Part shown: positions 1-8,523 of the stretch, one piece after another
How positions within the stretch are numbered: position 1 is the stretch's first letter
How the letters are laid out: each line of letters begins with the position of its first letter
DNA from: Deinococcales bacterium
GTDB taxonomy: Bacteria > Deinococcota > Deinococci > Deinococcales > JAAFIG01
DNA: 8,667 nucleotides
Assembly (NCBI GenBank): GCA_013298595.1
Contig: JAAFIG010000046.1
Span: 23,720-32,386 of the forward strand
Direction of reading: 5' to 3'
The notes under the pieces: generated by a model
What the model was told of the DNA's origin: nothing
Database searches by the model: none
What the model saw: the letters and a program-made list of their open reading frames with translations, nothing else
Translations under genes and position numbers: made by a program

Positions 1-845
1 CCAGACTCGGCAATCCCCGCCAAACCACTTTTTGAAAAATGACACGACTGACACGACACACCCTTAGTAGGAAATGACGAAGCCATGTACTCCGACCACG
101 TACTCTGCACTGCCACACCATTGATTTTAAAATCATGACATGCCTGACAAACCTGACCACTCGAGATCACAGGCGCAAACAAATCCTCTTTATGCGGATT
201 AGGTTTCGCATACATCAACGCCTTGGCAACACCACTACCAAAACTTGGTTGCACCGCAAAAGCATCCCCGCCCAGATACCCACGCACTCGAGCAGGATTG
301 ACCTCCCACGCCCCAGAACCACCATGCACCGCTGAAACAGTATGACAAAAACCACACGAGACACCCTGCTGACTCGAGACACTCTCACGGTTATACAAAC
401 CCACTTCACCTGTCATCAGAGCCACAGGTGCATGACACGCCGCACACAAGCGCACAGCAGGTTCACCACGTTCAACAACAAATTGCTCCTTGACCTTTAA
501 ATACAATTCATCAGTAGCACTTTTTGCATGCAAACTCTGCGACCACGCATCATGAATACCCGTATGACACGAACCACAACCAGCGGGATCAGGAAAAGCC
601 GCATTTGGCAGTAACACATTACCAGTGTTACGCGCAGGCGAAGGCAAAAATAAATCTGAGGGTTTCACAGCACCATACTCGAGTTGACCACCAGAACCTT
701 GTTTCAAACCACCCGCGTAAAAAGCAGGCAAAGGCTTAGACTCGAGACGCACAGGAAACGCCACCCAAGCATCAGAAAGCAGCAAAAAACCAACCAGCCC
801 AAGCAAAGCAGCCAAAAAAAGAAAAACTCGAGGAGAAAAACGCAT
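1..845 (-). CDS. multiheme cytochrome c, cytochrome c554-like (3' end outside window)
   Basis: Translating the minus strand from the ATG at 845 gives 281 residues with no stop before the window edge, so the C-terminus is missing. The N-terminus (MRFSPRVFLFLAALLGLVGF...) is a signal peptide or membrane anchor of about 25-30 residues. Five CxxCH haem c-attachment motifs are visible: CGSCH at residues 90-94, CAACH at 134-138, CGFCH at 164-168, CQACH at 233-237 and CQSCH at 265-269. More may lie downstream. The first motif is followed by IHDAWSQSLH, the pattern of the cytochrome c554/c552-type family, where the later His is usually a distal haem ligand. The likely role is periplasmic electron transfer; the partner and substrate cannot be told. 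The start lies 11 nt after the upstream small ORF, with AGGA only 2 nt from the ATG, a short spacing. Six CTCGAG palindromes fall inside the coding sequence. No functional link to the toxin genes is evident. Confidence 0.9.
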   Translation of the reverse strand, partial: MRFSPRVFLFLAALLGLVGFLLLSDAWVAFPVRLESKPLPAFYAGGLKQGSGGQLEYGAVKPSDLFLPSPARNTGNVLLPNAAFPDPAGCGSCHTGIHDAWSQSLHAKSATDELYLKVKEQFVVERGEPAVRLCAACHAPVALMTGEVGLYNRESVSSQQGVSCGFCHTVSAVHGGSGAWEVNPARVRGYLGGDAFAVQPSFGSGVAKALMYAKPNPHKEDLFAPVISSGQVCQACHDFKINGVAVQSTWSEYMASSFPTKGVSCQSCHFSKSGLAGIAES

Positions 846-856
846 AATCCTAGGAA

Positions 857-1210
857 TTAGTGTACTCGAGAAAGAAGCCAAGAAGAAACTTGAGATTCAA
901 AATCCTTCCCATCCAATGTTCTTCCCTCGAGTTTAACCTCGAGACCAGCTTGGGCTTTTAATGGTTCTTTTAGGGTGACATTGAAATCAAATCCATCGTA
1001 GAAAGTGGTTGACGCAGCCATTTTCATGGTGTCAGTAACGTCTTTTCCGCCAATACTGATTTTGATGGTGCTAGGGTTGACTTTGCTACCACTGAAATTA
1101 CCTAAGCTGGCACTAAAACCATTGGTATTACTCGAGAAAGCAAAACTCGAGGAATGGAAAAGCAGCACTAAGAAAGCGCTGAGAAAGCTCGAGAGGCGCA
1201 AGCTATTCAA
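857..1210 (-). CDS. small secreted protein carrying a duplicated toxin-stalk module (chimeric, possibly a gene remnant)
   Basis: This is a 117-residue ORF with a TTG start. No ATG or GTG is available between the in-frame stop at 1229-1231 and the signal-like segment. Residues 1-25 resemble a Sec signal peptide (basic residue, then SSFLSAFLVLLFHSSSFAF). Residues 26-107 are an almost unchanged copy of residues 813-895 of the lipoprotein toxin (NTNGFSASLGNFSGSKVNP... onward). The last residues (QVSSWLLSRVH) are unrelated to the toxin. The homology is confined to a 248-bp block. The gene starts 11 nt after the second SUKH stop and ends 11 nt before the cytochrome start, so it sits in the same transcription unit. 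No good Shine-Dalgarno sequence precedes the TTG. It could be an expressed small secreted protein or the scar of a duplication. No function is recognised. Confidence 0.5.
   Translation of the reverse strand: MNSLRLSSFLSAFLVLLFHSSSFAFSSNTNGFSASLGNFSGSKVNPSTIKISIGGKDVTDTMKMAASTTFYDGFDFNVTLKEPLKAQAGLEVKLEGRTLDGKDFESQVSSWLLSRVH
889..1136 (-). repeat. 248-bp duplicated block, copy 1 (in the small secreted ORF)
   Basis: This block aligns without gaps to 3890-4137 at a constant offset of 3001, with about 18 mismatches by eye (about 93% identity). The left boundary here is CTTGAG (889-894), where the partner has CTCGAG. The right boundary is CTCGAG in both copies (1131-1136). Similarity stops within one base outside these hexamers. 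Six of the mismatches cluster in seven bases, 1067-1073, exactly where the other copy holds an extra CTCGAG. Confidence 0.93.
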
Positions 1211-1221
1211 AACGGAATCAT

Positions 1222-1824
1222 CTAGCCTTTATAGCGCATATCAGGACTGGAAATACGGCGAAGACCATTTTCATCATAGAAAGTCTCAATTCGCTTGAAT
1301 TCTTCTGTCATAAATTCGGGAATACTGCTCCAAGAACGACCGTAAACCAGTTTCTTACGTTCAATACATTCATGCACAGTATTAGTAAAAGTATCATAGA
1401 AAATAGGGTATTGGTCATTTCCGTGTAATTCGAGTAAACCAAAAAAATAGTGTTGAGGTAAAGCACCTTGTGGGCGTTCACCAGAATTGAGGACATGAAG
1501 TGAAACTTGAGTTGTCCATGATTTTTGTGGGATACGATGACGGCGGTTCAAGCCTTGAATATCAAATGTATAATCGAAGAAATACCCACCCCCACAGAAT
1601 TTGTATAAATCAATTAAATCTTTGGAAAACTGCAATCCATAATGGTCTTGAATCTCTTGTATTTCATCATCATGAAAAGGTGTAAGTAATTTATGGACAT
1701 GTTGAAGTTCTCGAGTATAGTGTTTGATTCCAACGCTCGTGTCTTCAAAAACCTCCGTACCTAAGCGTTCCCACGGTTGAAAGCATTGAGTATAAAAATT
1801 TTCATAAGAGTAAGATTTTGACAT
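1222..1824 (-). CDS. SUKH (SMI1/KNR4) family immunity protein, second copy
   Basis: A 200-residue cytoplasmic protein without signal peptide. It shows the SUKH/SMI1-KNR4 pattern: an N-terminal helical part with EIQEIQDHYGLQFSKDL (54-70) and LYKFCGGG (73-80), then a mixed beta region and a C-terminal SSIPEFMTEEF (166-176). SUKH proteins are known to neutralise nuclease toxins of polymorphic toxin systems by direct binding. By position, this one should protect against the nuclease tip of the upstream lipoprotein or a relative of it. It aligns gap-free to the first copy (about 174 of 200 residues identical). Differences gather at 81-96 and 188-193. I chose the ATG at 1824 rather than the GTG at 1833 because the first copy begins at the same point and AAGGTG lies 6 nt before it. 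The gene begins 44 nt after the first copy's stop. It contains one CTCGAG site, which the first copy lacks. Confidence 0.83.
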   Translation of the reverse strand: MSKSYSYENFYTQCFQPWERLGTEVFEDTSVGIKHYTRELQHVHKLLTPFHDDEIQEIQDHYGLQFSKDLIDLYKFCGGGYFFDYTFDIQGLNRRHRIPQKSWTTQVSLHVLNSGERPQGALPQHYFFGLLELHGNDQYPIFYDTFTNTVHECIERKKLVYGRSWSSIPEFMTEEFKRIETFYDENGLRRISSPDMRYKG

Positions 1825-1830
1825 ACTAAA

Positions 1831-1836
1831 CACCTT
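1831..1836 (-). promoter_or_regulatory. ribosome binding site fixing the start of the second SUKH gene
   Basis: The minus strand reads AAGGTG here, 6 nt before the ATG at 1824. The GTG inside this box is the alternative in-frame start at 1833. Having the box serve as a Shine-Dalgarno and matching the paralogue's N-terminus both favour the ATG. Confidence 0.65.
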
Positions 1837-1868
1837 ATCAAATATATAATTGCAAAATTAGGAATTAT

Positions 1869-2471
1869 TTAGCCCTTATAACGCATATCTGGGTCTTCCG
1901 AAAGACAGATACCGTTTTCATCATAGAAAGTCTCAATTCGCTTGAATTCTTCAGTCATAAATTCGGGAATACTGCTCCAAGAACGACCGTAAACCAGTTT
2001 CTTACGTTCAATACATTCATGCACAGTATTAGTAAAAGTATCATAGAAAATAGGGTATTGGTCATTTCCGTACAATTCGAGTAAACCAAAAAAATAGTGT
2101 TGAGGTAAAGCACCTTGTGGACGTTCACCAGAATTGAGGACATGAAGTGAAACTTTTGTTGTCCATGATTTTTGTGGGATTCTGTTGCGACGATTTAAAC
2201 CATGAATATGAAATACAAAGTTAAAAAAACCTCCTCCTCCACAGAATTTGTACAAATCCACCAAATCCTTGGAGAACTGCAAACCATAATGGTCTTGAAT
2301 CTCTTGAATTTCATCATCAAAGAATGGAGTAAGCAGTTTATGTAGATGCTGAAACTCCCTTGTAGGATGATTAATTCCAACACTCGTGTCTTCAAAAACC
2401 TCCGTACCTAAGCGTTCCCACGGTTGGAAGCATTCTTTACGGAAATTTTCATAAGAGTAAATTTCTGACAT
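1869..2471 (-). CDS. SUKH (SMI1/KNR4) family immunity protein, first copy
   Basis: A 200-residue cytoplasmic protein with the SUKH pattern: EIQEIQDHYGLQFSKDL at 54-70, LYKFCGGG at 73-80, YFFGLLELYGNDQYPIFYD at 126-144 and SSIPEFMTEEF at 166-176. It is the gene directly after the toxin: the toxin stop (2475-2477) is 3 nt from this ATG. The Shine-Dalgarno AGGAAA (2479-2484) lies inside the end of the toxin gene, so the two are very likely translated from one message and coupled. Established knowledge: SUKH genes next to C-terminal nuclease toxins act as immunity proteins. Inference: this copy is the cognate immunity protein because it is adjacent. No CTCGAG lies in the gene, unlike most of the window. 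The family call is strong; the cognate pairing is by context only. Confidence 0.86.
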   Translation of the reverse strand: MSEIYSYENFRKECFQPWERLGTEVFEDTSVGINHPTREFQHLHKLLTPFFDDEIQEIQDHYGLQFSKDLVDLYKFCGGGGFFNFVFHIHGLNRRNRIPQKSWTTKVSLHVLNSGERPQGALPQHYFFGLLELYGNDQYPIFYDTFTNTVHECIERKKLVYGRSWSSIPEFMTEEFKRIETFYDENGICLSEDPDMRYKG

Positions 2472-2474
2472 AAA

Positions 2475-5400
2475 TTAGTTTCCTGTCGGTGGTGTAGCTT
2501 CACACCTTGGCACGCGTTGTTCAGTGTCCAAATATCGACTTTCACGATCTGTTAAATTACCTTGCGAACAGTTTTTATAACTACCACCATGACAAATATT
2601 AATGTGAGTATCGCGGTCTGTAAACGAAATATTATCAGGCACATCCGTAGCAGTATCATAACAAGCCGCCGAGTTAATATGATGCCCTACGTAATCACTC
2701 CAATCCCATAGTGTTTTACCTTTTTTATCTTTTTTAATATTACCGTCTGCATCTCGTTGCGCTTTTTTGCCATACAAACCAGATTGACGAATACTATCCT
2801 TGAAATCGGCGAAAGCTTTGACATACTTCTGATTTGTACAAGAAGCCGTAGACCCAAACGGAATACCTGCATACCCATAATTTTTACAACCCAATTGCTG
2901 TAATGTTTTCTCGAGACCAGTACGGGCTTCCCAGAGTTTCTTACGCTCTTCTGGTGTCCAGTTTCGTGTACCTCTGTCACCTCGACAAACTAACGAAGCT
3001 TCTTGTAACCAAGCCACATCAATACCAATTTCATACTTTGCTCGGCGTTCATCTTTATTAGGAATTGAACGCGGTGCTTTATTATTGGTACGTGTCTGCG
3101 GCACACTACGGGTCGTATCAGTTCCTTGGCATTCAGCACTATTAGAACGAACCATATCATAAGGTTTAGCAGCAGAAGCAGCCGCTGGTTTAGTGCTTGC
3201 TGCTGTCGCTAGGCATATACCAATACTTACAGGAGATTGCACAGTTACAGAAATAGGTTTAATCTGCGAAACATATTGCGCCCAACGCTGCGAAATTTGC
3301 GTTGAAACACGATCATTAGAAGGCGAAGTCCGAACAGCGTTTGAAACTCGAGCAGTTAAAGCTGCATTTGGTAAACGATAAGTACCAGAAGACCCCATAC
3401 AAACAGCGCCAGAAAGTGAAATGGCACCACAAGTTAATTGTTGTAAACGAAGTCCTTGACTCGAACCACTAATTGTAAAGTCAAGTCCACCACTGAAAAT
3501 CAAACCATTAACACTCATAGGATTATCCACTTGCAATGTAAACTCTGCAATTCCATTTTCAAAAGCTGCTGCTCGAGTTACATGAGTGCCACTGGTTAAG
3601 GATGGTGTTACTGCTTTAGAATTTATTGGCACAATACGTCCTAATTCATCTTCTGCCATAAAAAACAATGGGATTTCAAAATCTTGTAAGCTCGCTAAGT
3701 CATTCTCGAGGTAAAGAACTTTAATTTCACCTTCGGCTTCAACAAAGAATGGGAATTCACTTGGAGTTGTTTCCTCATCTTCTCCTGTTCCTTGTGCAAG
3801 CATCATATTCACATACGCATCGTCATCTGGGTCAATTGCCACAAAACGAATTGGGTAAGGCGTTATTTTAGCAACAATATCTACGCCCACTCGAGATTCA
3901 AATACTTTCCCATCCAGTGTTCTTCCCTCGAGTTTAACCTCGAGACCAGCTTGGGCTTTTAATGGTTCTTTTAGGGTTACATTGAAATCGAATCCATCAT
4001 AGAAAGTGCTGGAAGCAGCCATTTTCATGGTGTCAGTAACGTCTTTTCCGCCAACACTGATTTTGATACTCGAGGGGTTGACTTTGCTACCACTGAAATT
4101 ACCTAAGCTGGCACTAAAACCATTGGTATTACTCGAGATCAGAAGTGGATTAGTGGTAGTGGTAGCTTGGAGTTGAGCAGTAGGAGTGTTTTGTGGGGTT
4201 GCTTGGGTGGTGGCAAATGGTTTGACAGTGGGGGAACCACAAGCGTTATCTGTTTTGGGGATTGGCTTGGTTTTATAGGGTTCATTAGGTGGTGGAATAA
4301 TGGCGCACGGCAACTTTTGTGGGTTTCGGTCTGTTGGGTTAATTTTTTTCTTACTTGGGGCGGTGTAATCACCGTAACCCAATGGACTAATGACTATTTC
4401 TTGTGGGGCGCGTGAACCAGGTTTTGAACCTCGCACCTGACCATTTTCATCGCTGATCCCTTCGGATGTTGGAATACCGGGTGTTGGTACACAATCGTCT
4501 TCTGGATCTTCTGCGTCTTCATCTACTAGTTTGATGCAAGGCGGTGGCGGCGGTGGTTGTGTGGGATCAGAAATTGGTGGTGGTGCTTTAGAGCAATCAT
4601 CATCAGGGCTTGGTGGTGGTGGACCTGTTGGACCCGAAAATGATGTGGGTGGTAATGGGTTCGCTCCTCCAATCCAAGTAAAGTGATTAATTTCGTACTC
4701 GAGGAATAATTGTCCGTTTATTCTGCTGATTTTTCCGCCTGTGATGTCGTCCACCCATGTTCCTGTTTTAGTGTCAAAGTACAAAATGTTGATTGTTTCG
4801 CCAACATTCAGCACAATGCCGTCTTGTAATGGCAAGAAGAGTGTGGCTGGTTTTTTGAAAACCAAGCCTGTTGGTCCTAAATGGGCAAAGGCAAGGTAGT
4901 TACCGTTGTTGTTTAATTCTGGCAGGGTTGTACCATCACGTAAGTGCGTGAATTGAATCGGTGTATCTTTGTCCAGTGCACCTGCTGGTATTTTAATAAA
5001 TGGTCCTGTGCTGTGGTTGCTAGTGGCGTAATGAATGCCGCCACTCGAGCCGATAATAGTGGTGTTTGTGGTTTTTGGCTCTAACATCACCAGTTTGAGT
5101 GTCATGGTGCTGTTCGGATTATTGAGTACATTAGCTATTCGGTATAGTGGCTCGTGAGTGTCAGTATTTTCGTAATTTCCTGTGCTTGAATTATATTGTT
5201 GTACTTGTTTTTCGATTTTAACCACGTGTCTACCCGCTGGTACGCCGCGTAACAAAAAGTAGCCTGTGTTGCCACTGGTTGTTTCAAGTCCTGGGATGCT
5301 AATTCGTGCGCCTGCGATTGGGTTTTTGGTTTCGTAATCAAAAACGTAGCCATCTATAAAACTTTTGTAATTGTCACGCACATCTAAAGCTCGACCTACA

Positions 5401-6572
5401 GCTCCTTCGGCAATGGTTAAGGCTGGGTAGAGGGTGGCGCGTTCGCCATTGTTACTGGCTGCCATGATGCCGTATTTGCTGGGGATAAATCCTTTGGGGA
5501 TAATCACAGTGGCTTCTGTGGCTGTTACGTTTTGCACCTCGAGTTTAGTACTTTGAATAAAAAAAGCGGTGCTGGTTTCAAATCTTGTTCCTCGAATCAA
5601 AACGGTTGTATCCGTGTCGTTTTTAACAATGCTTGGTTGTAAATCTCGCATGAATAAACTGGGTTTAACAAGGTATGTTGGTTCAAGTCCAATTCGGGCA
5701 TTGCTTAACCGAACTGTGGTTATGCTTGAGTTGCTGGTGGTATCTGCATCTGGTCCAATCAGCATCAGTTCGCTGGCATTGGCGTAATAAGCTCGAGTTT
5801 CGGCTTCGGTTGTACTTTCATTAATTCCTCGTGTGACTCTGGTTATGGTGTCTTCAGTGAGTACAAAAGTCATCACAAATCGGTACGGTATTTGGATTGG
5901 GTTACTTGGGCGTTGGAAGCGCAATGTTAAGGTCACTAAACCCGTTTCACCATCACCAATACTTCTCGAGTAGCCGTTGCGAACCACAAAACCATACTCC
6001 AGTGGTGTGTCTTGGTTACGGATAATGTTGTTATTACGGGCGCTCGTGCCAATATTATTGGCTTCGTCTGAGCTGAAACCTTGAAAGTCTGCGTTTTCTG
6101 AATCTACAATTAATTCTGTACCACTGCGTTTCAGGCTCTGGACTGGGTAAATACTTTGGGCAGCTTTGACATCTGTTATTTCTGTACCACCAAAATTAAC
6201 AAGATTTTTAATGGCTGTACCAGCTAAACTGGTATTGCCTTGGTTGTAGGCAACTAAACTGAGGTTATTAATAACTGCACCACTATTGTTTTTCACTTCA
6301 AAAGTGGCACTGATATAGCGTTCGTTACTGCTATCAATATCAAAGCTACTCGAGAATTTTCTGGTAAAACTCAGAGCATTATCTGGGAAAGCAGTTCCAC
6401 TTTGATTTCTCAGTGCTGGGTTACTCAGTTTAGCGATTGCTTCGCCACCCCCATCAAGGGTTATCTCGAGGTTACCCAGTGTTTTAAAAGCTCGAGTAGC
6501 TGGTGGTGTTGGTTGCACACAAGCAATTAAAACAATTAAAAGCAATAAAATTTTATATGGCAAAGATTTCAT
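2475..6572 (-). CDS. lipoprotein polymorphic toxin with C-terminal GHH/HNH-type nuclease domain
   Basis: A 1365-residue protein. Residues 1-18 form a lipoprotein signal peptide ending in the lipobox LIAC, with lipidation at C18. About 30-300 is an unrecognised beta-rich region (RYISATFEVKNNSGAVINNL). About 303-388 resembles an IPT/TIG domain and 405-500 a carboxypeptidase-regulatory-like beta sandwich (GYVFDYETKNPIAGARISI). About 506-582 resembles ZU5 (FIKIPAGAL, GPTGLVFKKPATLFLPL). About 637-812 is a proline-, threonine- and acid-rich linker. 813-895 is the module duplicated at 889-1136. About 896-1115 is an unassigned beta-rich part. The C-terminal ~200 residues form the toxin, with RNWTPEERKKLW at 1203-1214 and a GHH nuclease core at 1294-1339. 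Eight Cys lie in 1148-1357. The start overlaps the preceding small ORF by ATGA, with AGGTGA 4 nt upstream. The lipid anchor, long stalk and nuclease tip suggest a surface or envelope effector acting on neighbouring cells. No RHS repeats, PAAR domain or other recognised delivery domain is seen, so the delivery route is unknown. Confidence 0.85.
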   Translation of the reverse strand: MKSLPYKILLLLIVLIACVQPTPPATRAFKTLGNLEITLDGGGEAIAKLSNPALRNQSGTAFPDNALSFTRKFSSSFDIDSSNERYISATFEVKNNSGAVINNLSLVAYNQGNTSLAGTAIKNLVNFGGTEITDVKAAQSIYPVQSLKRSGTELIVDSENADFQGFSSDEANNIGTSARNNNIIRNQDTPLEYGFVVRNGYSRSIGDGETGLVTLTLRFQRPSNPIQIPYRFVMTFVLTEDTITRVTRGINESTTEAETRAYYANASELMLIGPDADTTSNSSITTVRLSNARIGLEPTYLVKPSLFMRDLQPSIVKNDTDTTVLIRGTRFETSTAFFIQSTKLEVQNVTATEATVIIPKGFIPSKYGIMAASNNGERATLYPALTIAEGAVGRALDVRDNYKSFIDGYVFDYETKNPIAGARISIPGLETTSGNTGYFLLRGVPAGRHVVKIEKQVQQYNSSTGNYENTDTHEPLYRIANVLNNPNSTMTLKLVMLEPKTTNTTIIGSSGGIHYATSNHSTGPFIKIPAGALDKDTPIQFTHLRDGTTLPELNNNGNYLAFAHLGPTGLVFKKPATLFLPLQDGIVLNVGETINILYFDTKTGTWVDDITGGKISRINGQLFLEYEINHFTWIGGANPLPPTSFSGPTGPPPPSPDDDCSKAPPPISDPTQPPPPPPCIKLVDEDAEDPEDDCVPTPGIPTSEGISDENGQVRGSKPGSRAPQEIVISPLGYGDYTAPSKKKINPTDRNPQKLPCAIIPPPNEPYKTKPIPKTDNACGSPTVKPFATTQATPQNTPTAQLQATTTTNPLLISSNTNGFSASLGNFSGSKVNPSSIKISVGGKDVTDTMKMAASSTFYDGFDFNVTLKEPLKAQAGLEVKLEGRTLDGKVFESRVGVDIVAKITPYPIRFVAIDPDDDAYVNMMLAQGTGEDEETTPSEFPFFVEAEGEIKVLYLENDLASLQDFEIPLFFMAEDELGRIVPINSKAVTPSLTSGTHVTRAAAFENGIAEFTLQVDNPMSVNGLIFSGGLDFTISGSSQGLRLQQLTCGAISLSGAVCMGSSGTYRLPNAALTARVSNAVRTSPSNDRVSTQISQRWAQYVSQIKPISVTVQSPVSIGICLATAASTKPAAASAAKPYDMVRSNSAECQGTDTTRSVPQTRTNNKAPRSIPNKDERRAKYEIGIDVAWLQEASLVCRGDRGTRNWTPEERKKLWEARTGLEKTLQQLGCKNYGYAGIPFGSTASCTNQKYVKAFADFKDSIRQSGLYGKKAQRDADGNIKKDKKGKTLWDWSDYVGHHINSAACYDTATDVPDNISFTDRDTHINICHGGSYKNCSQGNLTDRESRYLDTEQRVPRCEATPPTGN
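2538..2705 (-). other. GHH/HNH-type nuclease core of the toxin (residues about 1290-1345)
   Basis: The visible signature is G1296-H1297-H1298-I-N1300, then P1312-D-N1314-I, H1323, and H1328-G-G, then N1334 and G1338. Known GHH-class toxin nucleases of the HNH/ENDO VII fold carry GHHIN..., PxNI.F and a downstream His followed by HGG, with the His residues serving in metal binding and catalysis. All of these positions are present, so the domain looks intact. The substrate (DNA or RNA) cannot be decided from sequence. Confidence 0.78.
3890..4137 (-). repeat. 248-bp duplicated block, copy 2 (inside the toxin stalk)
   Basis: Encodes toxin residues about 812-895 and matches 889-1136 gap-free. CTCGAG stands at each end (3890-3895 and 4132-4137), with three further CTCGAG sites inside (3927, 3939, 4069). 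The copy is in frame within an intact long gene, so I take it as the likely source and the small ORF as the derived copy. Confidence 0.93.
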
Positions 6573-6712
6573 TCATTCACCTGATCTTCTGGAAGGAGGT
6601 TCAGACCAATAGGTAAAGAAACACCTGTGCTGAGTTGCCATGTGGGTAGTTGCTCAAGTCTTGGCACTTGGTACACTACTCGAGTTTCTTGTTGTTGATG
6701 TACTGCGTTCAT
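6569..6712 (-). CDS. 47-residue small protein between the WD40 and toxin genes
   Basis: MNAVHQQQETRVVYQVPRLE... ending LLPEDQVNE, 47 residues plus TGA. The ATG (6712-6710) overlaps the TGA of the WD40 gene (6711-6709) as ATGA. Its own TGA (6571-6569) overlaps the toxin ATG (6572-6570) as ATGA. A strong Shine-Dalgarno, GGAAGGTGA (6717-6725), lies 4 nt before the start. These paired 4-bp overlaps are a typical sign of translational coupling and are unlikely by chance on both sides of a random frame. The protein is Gln-rich at the N-terminus and has no signal peptide or membrane segment, so it is probably cytoplasmic. I recognise no family. It could be a chaperone, adaptor or regulator for the toxin, or simply a coupling leader. 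Confidence 0.65.
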   Translation of the reverse strand: MNAVHQQQETRVVYQVPRLEQLPTWQLSTGVSLPIGLNLLPEDQVNE

Positions 6713-8523
6713 GGTGTCACCTTCCAACTGGCAATATTGCCACTATCAAATCCCGCATAGAATTGTTGACCATCACTTGAAGCTGTGAGTGCAAAAACTG
6801 CACCTAGTTGTGGTTCTACCTCGAGCATCATCTTCTGATTTGGTACATCCCAAAGGATTATTCTGCCATCCATGCCACCAGTTACCAGTGTGGTGGAATT
6901 TAACCAAGCCATTGTTCTAACAGCCCCAAGATGTCCTTTGAGCGTTGCCTCAAGTGTTTGCGTGGCAGTATTCCAAATGCGAACTTGGTGATCTTCGCTC
7001 CCACTGGCAAGACGTGTTCCATCACTCGAGTATGCAATCGTAAAAACAGGGCGGCTCGAGTCTACGGGCTGCAATGTAAATTGGGTTTCGCCAGTATCAG
7101 GGTTTCGCAGTTTAATTGTGCCATCACTGCTGGCACTGGCTAATGCTGTACCACTTGGATTGTATTGCACTGCGTTCACATAATCTGTATGGTCTGTTTG
7201 GGTTTGCTCGAGTGTTTGTGTAGCAGTATTCCAAATACGTAGCGTGTTATCCCATCCTGCACTGGCTAATGTGGTGCTATTTGGCTTCCAAGCCAACCCA
7301 CGAATGGTGTACGTATGACCACTTAATGTACCTATTTCCTCTCGAGTGCCAGCGTTCCAAAGGTGAATGATGCTGTCTTCGCCTGCTGTTGCATAAGCAG
7401 TGCTGTCTGGCGAGTATCCAATAGCATAGACGGATTGTGAACCTAACTGCTGGGAGCTATTTGCGACACCAGTTTTTAGATCACGCGTCATAACTGTTCT
7501 ATCTCGACTGACACTACTAACCGTTTTTTGATTTGGACTTATAGTAATCTGATAAATATTTGCACTGTGCTTAGTTGCAGTACAGGAAATACAAGCCATT
7601 ATCTCGAGTGTCTTCGCATCGAACAAAATTGGCTCACCTTTATTATTTAAAATAACTAATAGGTTTCCATCGCGGCTAAATTGAAATTCACGAACTTGAC
7701 TGTCATAGGGAAAATTCTGAAAATTATTAATTACTCGGGTTACTTCTCCTGTTTCACTATCAATTATTCTAATTGTCCCATCTTGAAATTGAACAGCTAT
7801 CATTTTACTATTTGGAAACCACTGAAGTTTGCTTGGTCGAGAATCCACAACTATTTGGTTGAGAAACACAAGGTTTGTTGAATCAAAAAATGCAATAATA
7901 TTTTTATTTTGATTATCCTGACACAAGCAATACAGTTTTTTGCGATCAGGGCTAAGGTTATCTATATGTAAATCCGTGTAGCTAAGATTGTTTTGAGCTA
8001 TAAAATCATAAAACTTTACCGAGTATTCGACAGTTTCCGTATCTACATTAATTAATTCAATAAAATCTTCACCATATCCTAATGGCGAGGTTTTATTGAA
8101 TTTTACCAAAATTTTATTATCAGAAATCCAATTTATTTGGTTTAGGTGAATTCCTAAAAATATATTATTTATAGATTTATCTAGAGTATTTAAGATGCTT
8201 AACTTATAGTCACTACTATTGGAAGTAAAAATTGGTGCATACGCAATTTTACTTCCACTCGGATTCCAACTTGCTTGGTATCTCGGTTTAGTATACCCAT
8301 CGAACCACATGGGATTTATAAAAGCAAAAATATTGTTTGGAATAGTACCACCACTGTACTGCGTACTTGGAGTTTCTTGGGCTTCCGCATTCCACCAAAA
8401 GTCACCTGATAACAATTGTGTTCCTTGTGGATTCCATTCAGCTACCCAATCTCCCGAAAAACCATGTCCTTGATTAGAATCGCGTCCATAAACTTGTTGT
8501 ACTAGTGTAGCAATTGACCACAA
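6709..8523 (-). CDS. WD40-repeat beta-propeller protein, 5' end apparently removed by an IS
   Basis: The open frame gives 604 residues from a TTG at 8523, but the true N-terminus is probably lost. No ATG or GTG and no Shine-Dalgarno precede it, and an IS end begins 20 nt upstream. The C-terminal half (about 319-604) has seven WD40-type blades, for example IYQITISPNQKTVSSVSRDR, GLAWKPNSTTLASAGWDNTL with RIWN, and AIGYSPDSTAYATAGEDS with IHLWN. These would close one seven-bladed propeller. Residues about 15-310 hold weaker repeats (WVAEWNPQGTQLLSG, ASWNPSGSKIAY, LQWFPNSKMIAVQFQDG), suggesting a second, degenerate propeller. Two blades share the same IWNTATQTLE segment. WD40 proteins act as binding scaffolds; the partner here is unknown. 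The gene is coupled by ATGA to the small ORF and heads the toxin operon as seen. The 5' 900 bp contains no CTCGAG, unlike the 3' part. Whether the truncated frame is still translated is uncertain. Confidence 0.8.
   Translation of the reverse strand: MWSIATLVQQVYGRDSNQGHGFSGDWVAEWNPQGTQLLSGDFWWNAEAQETPSTQYSGGTIPNNIFAFINPMWFDGYTKPRYQASWNPSGSKIAYAPIFTSNSSDYKLSILNTLDKSINNIFLGIHLNQINWISDNKILVKFNKTSPLGYGEDFIELINVDTETVEYSVKFYDFIAQNNLSYTDLHIDNLSPDRKKLYCLCQDNQNKNIIAFFDSTNLVFLNQIVVDSRPSKLQWFPNSKMIAVQFQDGTIRIIDSETGEVTRVINNFQNFPYDSQVREFQFSRDGNLLVILNNKGEPILFDAKTLEIMACISCTATKHSANIYQITISPNQKTVSSVSRDRTVMTRDLKTGVANSSQQLGSQSVYAIGYSPDSTAYATAGEDSIIHLWNAGTREEIGTLSGHTYTIRGLAWKPNSTTLASAGWDNTLRIWNTATQTLEQTQTDHTDYVNAVQYNPSGTALASASSDGTIKLRNPDTGETQFTLQPVDSSRPVFTIAYSSDGTRLASGSEDHQVRIWNTATQTLEATLKGHLGAVRTMAWLNSTTLVTGGMDGRIILWDVPNQKMMLEVEPQLGAVFALTASSDGQQFYAGFDSGNIASWKVTP
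6717..6725 (-). promoter_or_regulatory. ribosome binding site of the 47-residue ORF
   Basis: The minus strand reads GGAAGGTGA, 4 nt before the ATG at 6712, inside the last codons of the WD40 gene. It is one of the better Shine-Dalgarno matches in the window and supports the small ORF being translated. Confidence 0.6.

Follow-up and report, generated by a model that had tools for sequence, protein, structure and literature searches.

The hexamer CTCGAG occurs 27,159 times in the 4.58 Mb genome of a Deinococcales bacterium (5.9 copies per kb, roughly one per 170 bases), whereas its reversed control, GAGCTC, numbers 15 copies in the whole genome. It was noticed in a stretch of 8,667 nucleotides, hereafter the window (C41:23720-32386 of this home genome, G000, which comprises 68 contigs). 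A pressure acting on DNA, and on the hexamer as a whole, promotes almost all attainable copies one by one. It constrains codon choice and, in part, the choice of amino acids, and two copies seldom lie within about 18-20 bp of one another. We tentatively read CTCGAG as a word akin to the highly iterated palindromes (HIPs) of cyanobacteria, selected for occupancy by a putative binding protein at each site. The word itself is certain; its reader is inferred.

Abundance in the home genome and among relatives

The first-pass annotation, drawn from the window, had called CTCGAG a highly iterated palindrome in about 20-fold excess or more. The window holds 37 copies, between 160 and 7608, against a mean of 0.71 and a maximum of 4 in dinucleotide-preserving shuffles (n=200), an excess of ~50-fold. 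CTCGAG is the top hexamer by count, the runner-up palindrome reaching 9 copies. The claim is upheld, at a higher fold excess in the window than had been estimated, and the genome-wide count rules out an enrichment limited to the window. The statistics combine whole-genome counts with samples, which amount to 392 kb in the home genome, ~300 kb in G002, 258 kb in G003 and 35-100 kb in other relatives. In the home sample (GC 0.45), the 2386 copies represent 31 times the composition expectation and, in the suggested comparison of palindromes with a Markov model, ~72 times the second-order expectation, the word having been masked when the model was built; the palindrome ranked second reaches 2.4 times. 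Many other palindromes are avoided in this sample (L031-L050): GGCC occurs 11 times where composition predicts 1014, and CTTAAG and TTCGAA 0 times where it predicts 113. The home genome also contains AT-rich stretches of 1-2 kb free of CTCGAG (L032:4093-6101, L032:17656-18827 and L035:1-1296), one of which holds a D12-type methyltransferase. These stretches were probably acquired recently and have yet to gain the word; no rRNA was found in the two loci checked.

The uncultured family f1, a relative of Thermus and Meiothermus, carries the word throughout, its four genomes each having 26,600-28,200 copies. The sister family f2 includes genus g11, in which G012 has 21,868 copies and G016 has 14,690 (genome 58% complete, the others being 91-94% complete), but also G004, which has 683, below its own GAGCTC control. 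The strong enrichment most simply arose in or before the f1+f2 ancestor and was then lost in G004, since the RpoB tree joins f1 with f2 (support 97/98). G008 holds 13,552 copies. A milder excess, of 4.6-10.9 times, is observed in genera g13, g23 and g24 of f5, in G006 (f4) and in genus g29 of f3, with Leu-Glu occupancy by CTCGAG of 0.41-0.66. It extends to Meiothermus-type and Trueperaceae genomes. Presumed identities are Meiothermus ruber for G025, Meiothermus silvanus for G061, Marinithermus hydrothermalis for G006 and Truepera radiovictrix for G009. All CTCGAG-rich f1 and g11 genomes have almost no GAGCTC, which among the milder ones is scarce in none except partly G068; avoidance of GGCC is not common to all rich genomes, its frequency being normal in G012. 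In a viral scan for three clustered sites, the densest among the matches listed were mostly GC-rich phages, many of them GAGCTC-rich too and hence of no informative value for CTCGAG.

This distribution bears on a role in DNA uptake or self-recognition, serving natural transformation or defence, which we consider improbable. Enriched self-words are present in Neisseria and Haemophilus, and competence occurs in cultured relatives, for instance Thermus. However, the Thermus-sized genomes (genus g7) display little or no CTCGAG excess over the GAGCTC control, one copy every 170 bp greatly exceeds the density required for the uptake of kb-long fragments, and the word is palindromic, 6 bp long and devoid of an extended flank.

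A DNA-level pressure and the mutual exclusion of close copies

The word is read on DNA, rather than on mRNA or protein, because the genic and intergenic densities are similar (6.14 and 5.75 per kb) and all phases are used. The earlier statement that copies lie almost entirely inside genes is correct for the window, because the window is nearly all coding, but does not hold as a preference. The window sites do occupy every reading phase, as had been described, and the reported lack of conserved flanks agrees with the low information content around intergenic copies in three genomes, where no position exceeds about 0.1 bit.

CTC-GAG writes 70% of Leu-Glu dipeptides, versus 1.7% expected from codon use elsewhere, and in the home genome xCT-CGA-Gxx writes 65% of [Ser/Pro/Thr/Ala]-Arg-[Val/Ala/Asp/Glu/Gly]. 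The codon following CTC is GAG in 1183 cases and GAA in 105, as compared to a GAG:GAA ratio of ~0.2 after the other codons tested. Relative to two one-step synonymous neighbours, the ln-odds of the word are 3.8 and 3.2 in the home genome (range 3.1-3.8); G002 and G003 give 2.3-3.0, and the values of G004 are negative. In the proteome, Leu-Glu is over-represented 2.4 times with Glu-Leu at 0.93; the word therefore also pulls amino acids. Together, the density, codon and amino-acid data support the positive process to which the enrichment had been attributed. They leave a side effect of preferred codons or codon pairs, or of the avoidance of other palindromes, as a highly improbable cause which, like the uptake word, fits poorly. 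In-frame CTC-GAG does account for more genic sites than any other phase (1183 of 2053), and other palindromes are avoided, but the out-of-frame phases are heavily used, the GAG:GAA ratio is 11 after CTC instead of about 0.2, and the nearly equal intergenic density refutes a codon-pair effect.

The sites are also retained between genomes. Across rpoB-rpoC, 62% of CTCGAG copies are shared between G000 and its congener G001 (81% identity), versus ~31% of phase-matched hexamers, and the comparison with related genomes that had been called for thus reveals conservation about twice that of other hexamers. Between f1 and g11, 5 of 10 sites are shared versus ~1.1 expected (rpoB only, small numbers); with G004, none of 34 is shared.

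The occupancy of a coding opportunity falls when another CTCGAG is located nearby. Pairs with both opportunities occupied at 6-17 bp number 93, versus 282 expected. The observed/expected ratio of such pairs is 0.23, 0.26 and 0.31 at 6-8, 9-11 and 12-14 bp, rises to 0.48, 0.64 and 0.84 at 15-17, 18-20 and 21-23 bp, and amounts to 0.96-1.0 past 48 bp. In a conditional test at 6-17 bp, the second opportunity is filled in 23-27% of cases if the first is filled and in 54-56% if it is empty, an effect that is gone at 18-24 bp. Taken separately, the home genome and the other rich genomes both show the exclusion (odds ratios 0.26/0.30, 0.32/0.29). Local context is unlikely to be the cause, because occupancy is normal beside empty opportunities. 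Hairpin avoidance was rejected as well: generic 6-bp inverted repeats are normal at 12-18 bp and mildly reduced below 12 bp. The spacing of sites exhibits no clear peak indicative of helical or other periodicity.

This pattern resembles the footprint that a molecule sitting on each site would leave. A putative, probably dimeric, sequence-specific DNA-binding protein would bind each hexamer, covering about 18-20 bp, and may have a nucleoid-organising, chromosome-maintenance or repair-associated role. Occupancy would be what is selected, with a scaled strength of about 2-4 per site. We propose that the short-range exclusion arises because a second site within an occupied footprint would add nothing, and the near saturation because sites beyond that range would count nearly independently. 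The pattern can be explained without invoking a shared DNA methyltransferase. Among the candidates originally listed, a nucleoid-type protein site fits best, because the sites exclude each other within 18-20 bp. A broader proposal is possible, though we hold it with less assurance: a methylation-independent, genome-saturating code in which the putative protein would sit on tens of thousands of sites with its 18-20 bp footprint, the need for occupancy would reshape codon usage and proteome composition, and the whole would be graded across the order, cultured Meiothermus included.

Several points weigh against a binding protein. Doubles of the form CTCGAGNCTCGAG (7 bp spacing, one-base gap) are not depleted, chiefly in G002 (L055-L058, L411-L421), and therefore conflict with a simple steric model. 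The pooled milder set (G008, Meiothermus and G006) has 21 close pairs versus 23.3 expected; in G068, also mild, 1 versus 6.5 gives a weak and uncertain hint of exclusion. To note, the exclusion statistics are derived from heuristic gene calls and partial samples. The reader protein is putative, and the same exclusion would be expected from an enzyme of repair or conversion that covers a comparable stretch of DNA.

Methyltransferases, nucleases and repair

Methyltransferases were searched by family (PF00145, PF01555, PF07669, PF02384 and PF02086). None in these five families is common to all rich genomes; other families were not searched and the genomes are incomplete. The sole C5 enzyme of the home genome (L001) has orthologs only in G001 (74%) and G012 (59%), and other methyltransferase pairs are common to two genomes, none to all rich ones. 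Cyanobacteria, spirochaetes and other organisms have relatives of L001 (about 56-66% identity) that reside in DNA without clear CTCGAG excess. The enzyme was traced to 80 loci elsewhere, and those at 45-66% identity lack an excess save for two Deinococcales loci and the marginal L211 (8 versus 4.2). A single dedicated CTCGAG methyltransferase shared by the rich genomes, a candidate that the annotation had proposed and advised looking for, is not supported, given the want of a common ortholog in the families searched and the lack of a clear excess of the word around the relatives of L001. In G003 (C40), the frame L020 encodes a C5 methyltransferase of 651 residues, apparently interrupted by an intein-like insertion.

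The XhoI-family endonuclease (PF04555) is absent from all rich genomes. Within the order, such nucleases occur in G009, G018, G042 and G048, beside two kinds of methyltransferase (L100/L152/L153 and L111) for which no close relative was found in the rich genomes. XhoI restriction-modification is rejected as the cause, as rich genomes have no such nuclease and hold the word in excess instead of avoiding it. In G009, the XhoI-family nuclease gene L154/L155 is broken by a TGA and a TAG, while the adjoining methyltransferase frame is apparently intact; judging from the sequence, this may be a decaying CTCGAG restriction system.

Vsr endonuclease is likewise missing from the rich genomes. Vsr-linked repair of 5-methylcytosine is rejected on that ground and because the deamination product CTTGAG is 1.9 times over background, not depleted. 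In the home sample, the cytosine of the CpG does not undergo C-to-T change more often than the outer one, C1.

According to Elhai 2015 (PMC4390886), cyanobacterial HIPs are tied to methyltransferases, and a methyl-directed repair ratchet is proposed that would saturate near one site per kb. By analogy, a CTCGAG methyltransferase would mark strands for mismatch repair and ratchet sites up, possibly through unrelated enzymes of the same specificity. The general pairing of cyanobacterial HIPs with matching methyltransferases (PMC4390886) is in favour of this explanation, as are the several candidate methyltransferases that every rich genome except the fragmentary G016 carries. We nevertheless regard it as unlikely, and slightly more so than the non-adaptive drive considered below: besides the want of a common ortholog in the families searched, the partners of XhoI-type nucleases have no close relatives in the rich genomes, the home C5 enzyme also occurs in organisms without CTCGAG excess, and the decay at the CpG cytosine is not elevated. 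Moreover, 6 sites per kb is far over the model saturation of ~1 per kb, and the scale of exclusion is 18 bp, not 1 kb.

The word could also pile up without any function, through biased mismatch correction, gene conversion or a shielding binder, a drive that at equilibrium is formally equivalent to selection and whose bias would be strong enough for amino-acid change. Discordant homologous sites of f1 pairs are at least 3 bases different in ~55% of cases versus 24% in controls, and one base different in 19% versus 46%; near-misses seem to be pulled in quickly, as such a drive would do. Site 4069 of the window differs from its duplicate copy by a change cluster amid nearly identical DNA, which is also in its favour. 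Conversely, all rich genomes lack Vsr, transition variants of the half-site are ~2 times over background at all three positions (392-kb sample), unlike the repair of one specific mismatch, and an 18-bp exclusion requires an extra assumption on the enzyme. We judge this drive to be unlikely. A paralogue comparison of the mutational route to new sites covers 26 sites only. The strongest alternatives to the binding protein are non-adaptive conversion or protection that covers a comparable stretch, and methylation in which the enzymes of different genomes are not orthologous. From the original interpretation, a HIP-like word under positive DNA-level pressure stands, and the shared dedicated methyltransferase is not supported.

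Sites in the window and comparison with known systems

The 37 sites are listed below. Two of them (926 and 938) were inherited through a partial gene duplication that relates positions 857-1210 to 3858-4200, being the duplicate of 3927 and 3939. At 4069, a tight cluster of substitutions makes the word, hinting at multi-base changes. Between 1222 and 6572, a tandem pair of SUKH (immunity-type) genes adjoins a lipoprotein gene of 1365 residues, the C-terminal part of which has a weak match to a GHH/HNH nuclease toxin domain; the ensemble looks like a polymorphic toxin with its immunity genes. On the minus strand, a multihaem cytochrome-like open frame with several CxxCH motifs (3-881) extends past the window.

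Table 1. Positions of CTCGAG in the 8,667-nucleotide window
Feature	Coordinates	Strand	Remarks
CTCGAG site 1	160..165	.	exact match
CTCGAG site 2	287..292	.	exact match
CTCGAG site 3	373..378	.	exact match
CTCGAG site 4	678..683	.	exact match
CTCGAG site 5	741..746	.	exact match
CTCGAG site 6	827..832	.	exact match
CTCGAG site 7	865..870	.	exact match
CTCGAG site 8	926..931	.	exact match; copy of 3939 or 3927 via partial gene duplication
CTCGAG site 9	938..943	.	exact match; member of duplicated pair, 12 bp spacing in both copies
CTCGAG site 10	1131..1136	.	exact match
CTCGAG site 11	1146..1151	.	exact match
CTCGAG site 12	1188..1193	.	exact match
CTCGAG site 13	1710..1715	.	exact match; sole site in the two SUKH genes, second paralogue without
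CTCGAG site 14	2910..2915	.	exact match
CTCGAG site 15	3347..3352	.	exact match
CTCGAG site 16	3572..3577	.	exact match
CTCGAG site 17	3705..3710	.	exact match
CTCGAG site 18	3890..3895	.	exact match; duplicate copy reads CTCAAG
CTCGAG site 19	3927..3932	.	exact match
CTCGAG site 20	3939..3944	.	exact match
CTCGAG site 21	4069..4074	.	exact match; duplicate copy without site (clustered differences)
CTCGAG site 22	4132..4137	.	exact match
CTCGAG site 23	4698..4703	.	exact match
CTCGAG site 24	5044..5049	.	exact match
CTCGAG site 25	5538..5543	.	exact match
CTCGAG site 26	5792..5797	.	exact match
CTCGAG site 27	5965..5970	.	exact match
CTCGAG site 28	6349..6354	.	exact match
CTCGAG site 29	6465..6470	.	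exact match
CTCGAG site 30	6491..6496	.	exact match
CTCGAG site 31	6679..6684	.	exact match; intergenic
CTCGAG site 32	6820..6825	.	exact match
CTCGAG site 33	7025..7030	.	exact match
CTCGAG site 34	7055..7060	.	exact match
CTCGAG site 35	7207..7212	.	exact match
CTCGAG site 36	7341..7346	.	exact match
CTCGAG site 37	7603..7608	.	exact match

The DNA uptake sequence (DUS) of Neisseria and the uptake signal sequence (USS) of Haemophilus resemble CTCGAG as self-words enriched genome-wide, but are longer, non-palindromic and several-fold sparser. The XhoI/PaeR7I restriction-modification systems recognise the identical word, whereas the rich genomes have no XhoI-family nuclease and are enriched in it. 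MatP/matS, ParB/parS and Noc also involve palindromic protein sites across the chromosome. These sites number in the tens, as compared to about 27,000 for CTCGAG and its putative reader.

No description of CTCGAG as an iterated word was found in the open-access literature searched, the coverage of which is incomplete; within that scope, the annotation was right that no counterpart is described, and its choice of HIP1 as the analogue is borne out. An excess of CTCGAG around CpG in honey bee intergenic DNA (PMC3903499) is an unrelated case. HIP1 (GCGATCGC) was described in 1995 and its function has been open since (PMC4390886). CTCGAG shares with HIP1 and the alternate cyanobacterial HIPs a short GC-rich palindrome, a huge genome-wide excess that is confined neither to a phase nor to coding DNA and lacks conserved flanks, and conservation in a clade with loss in some members. 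It is of the HIP kind, differing from HIP1 in phylum (Deinococcales instead of cyanobacteria), word, length (6 bp versus 8 bp) and density (about 6 versus about 1 per kb), and in that no shared methyltransferase was found in the five families searched. Variants one base off HIP1 are concentrated at its outer positions, whereas CTCGAG transitions are evenly raised over the half-site. CTCGAG is further characterised by near-saturated coding opportunities, amino-acid distortion and the exclusion rule, none of which was looked up for HIP1; short-range exclusion between sites is new here. Saturation, distortion of the proteome and, above all, exclusion provide quantitative handles that make the protein-reader hypothesis directly testable, and weigh against such words necessarily being by-products of methyltransferases. 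Alongside HIP1, CTCGAG represents a second, independent HIP lineage, with a different word, a much stronger density, a clean sister that has lost it (G004) and milder relatives in the Meiothermus group.

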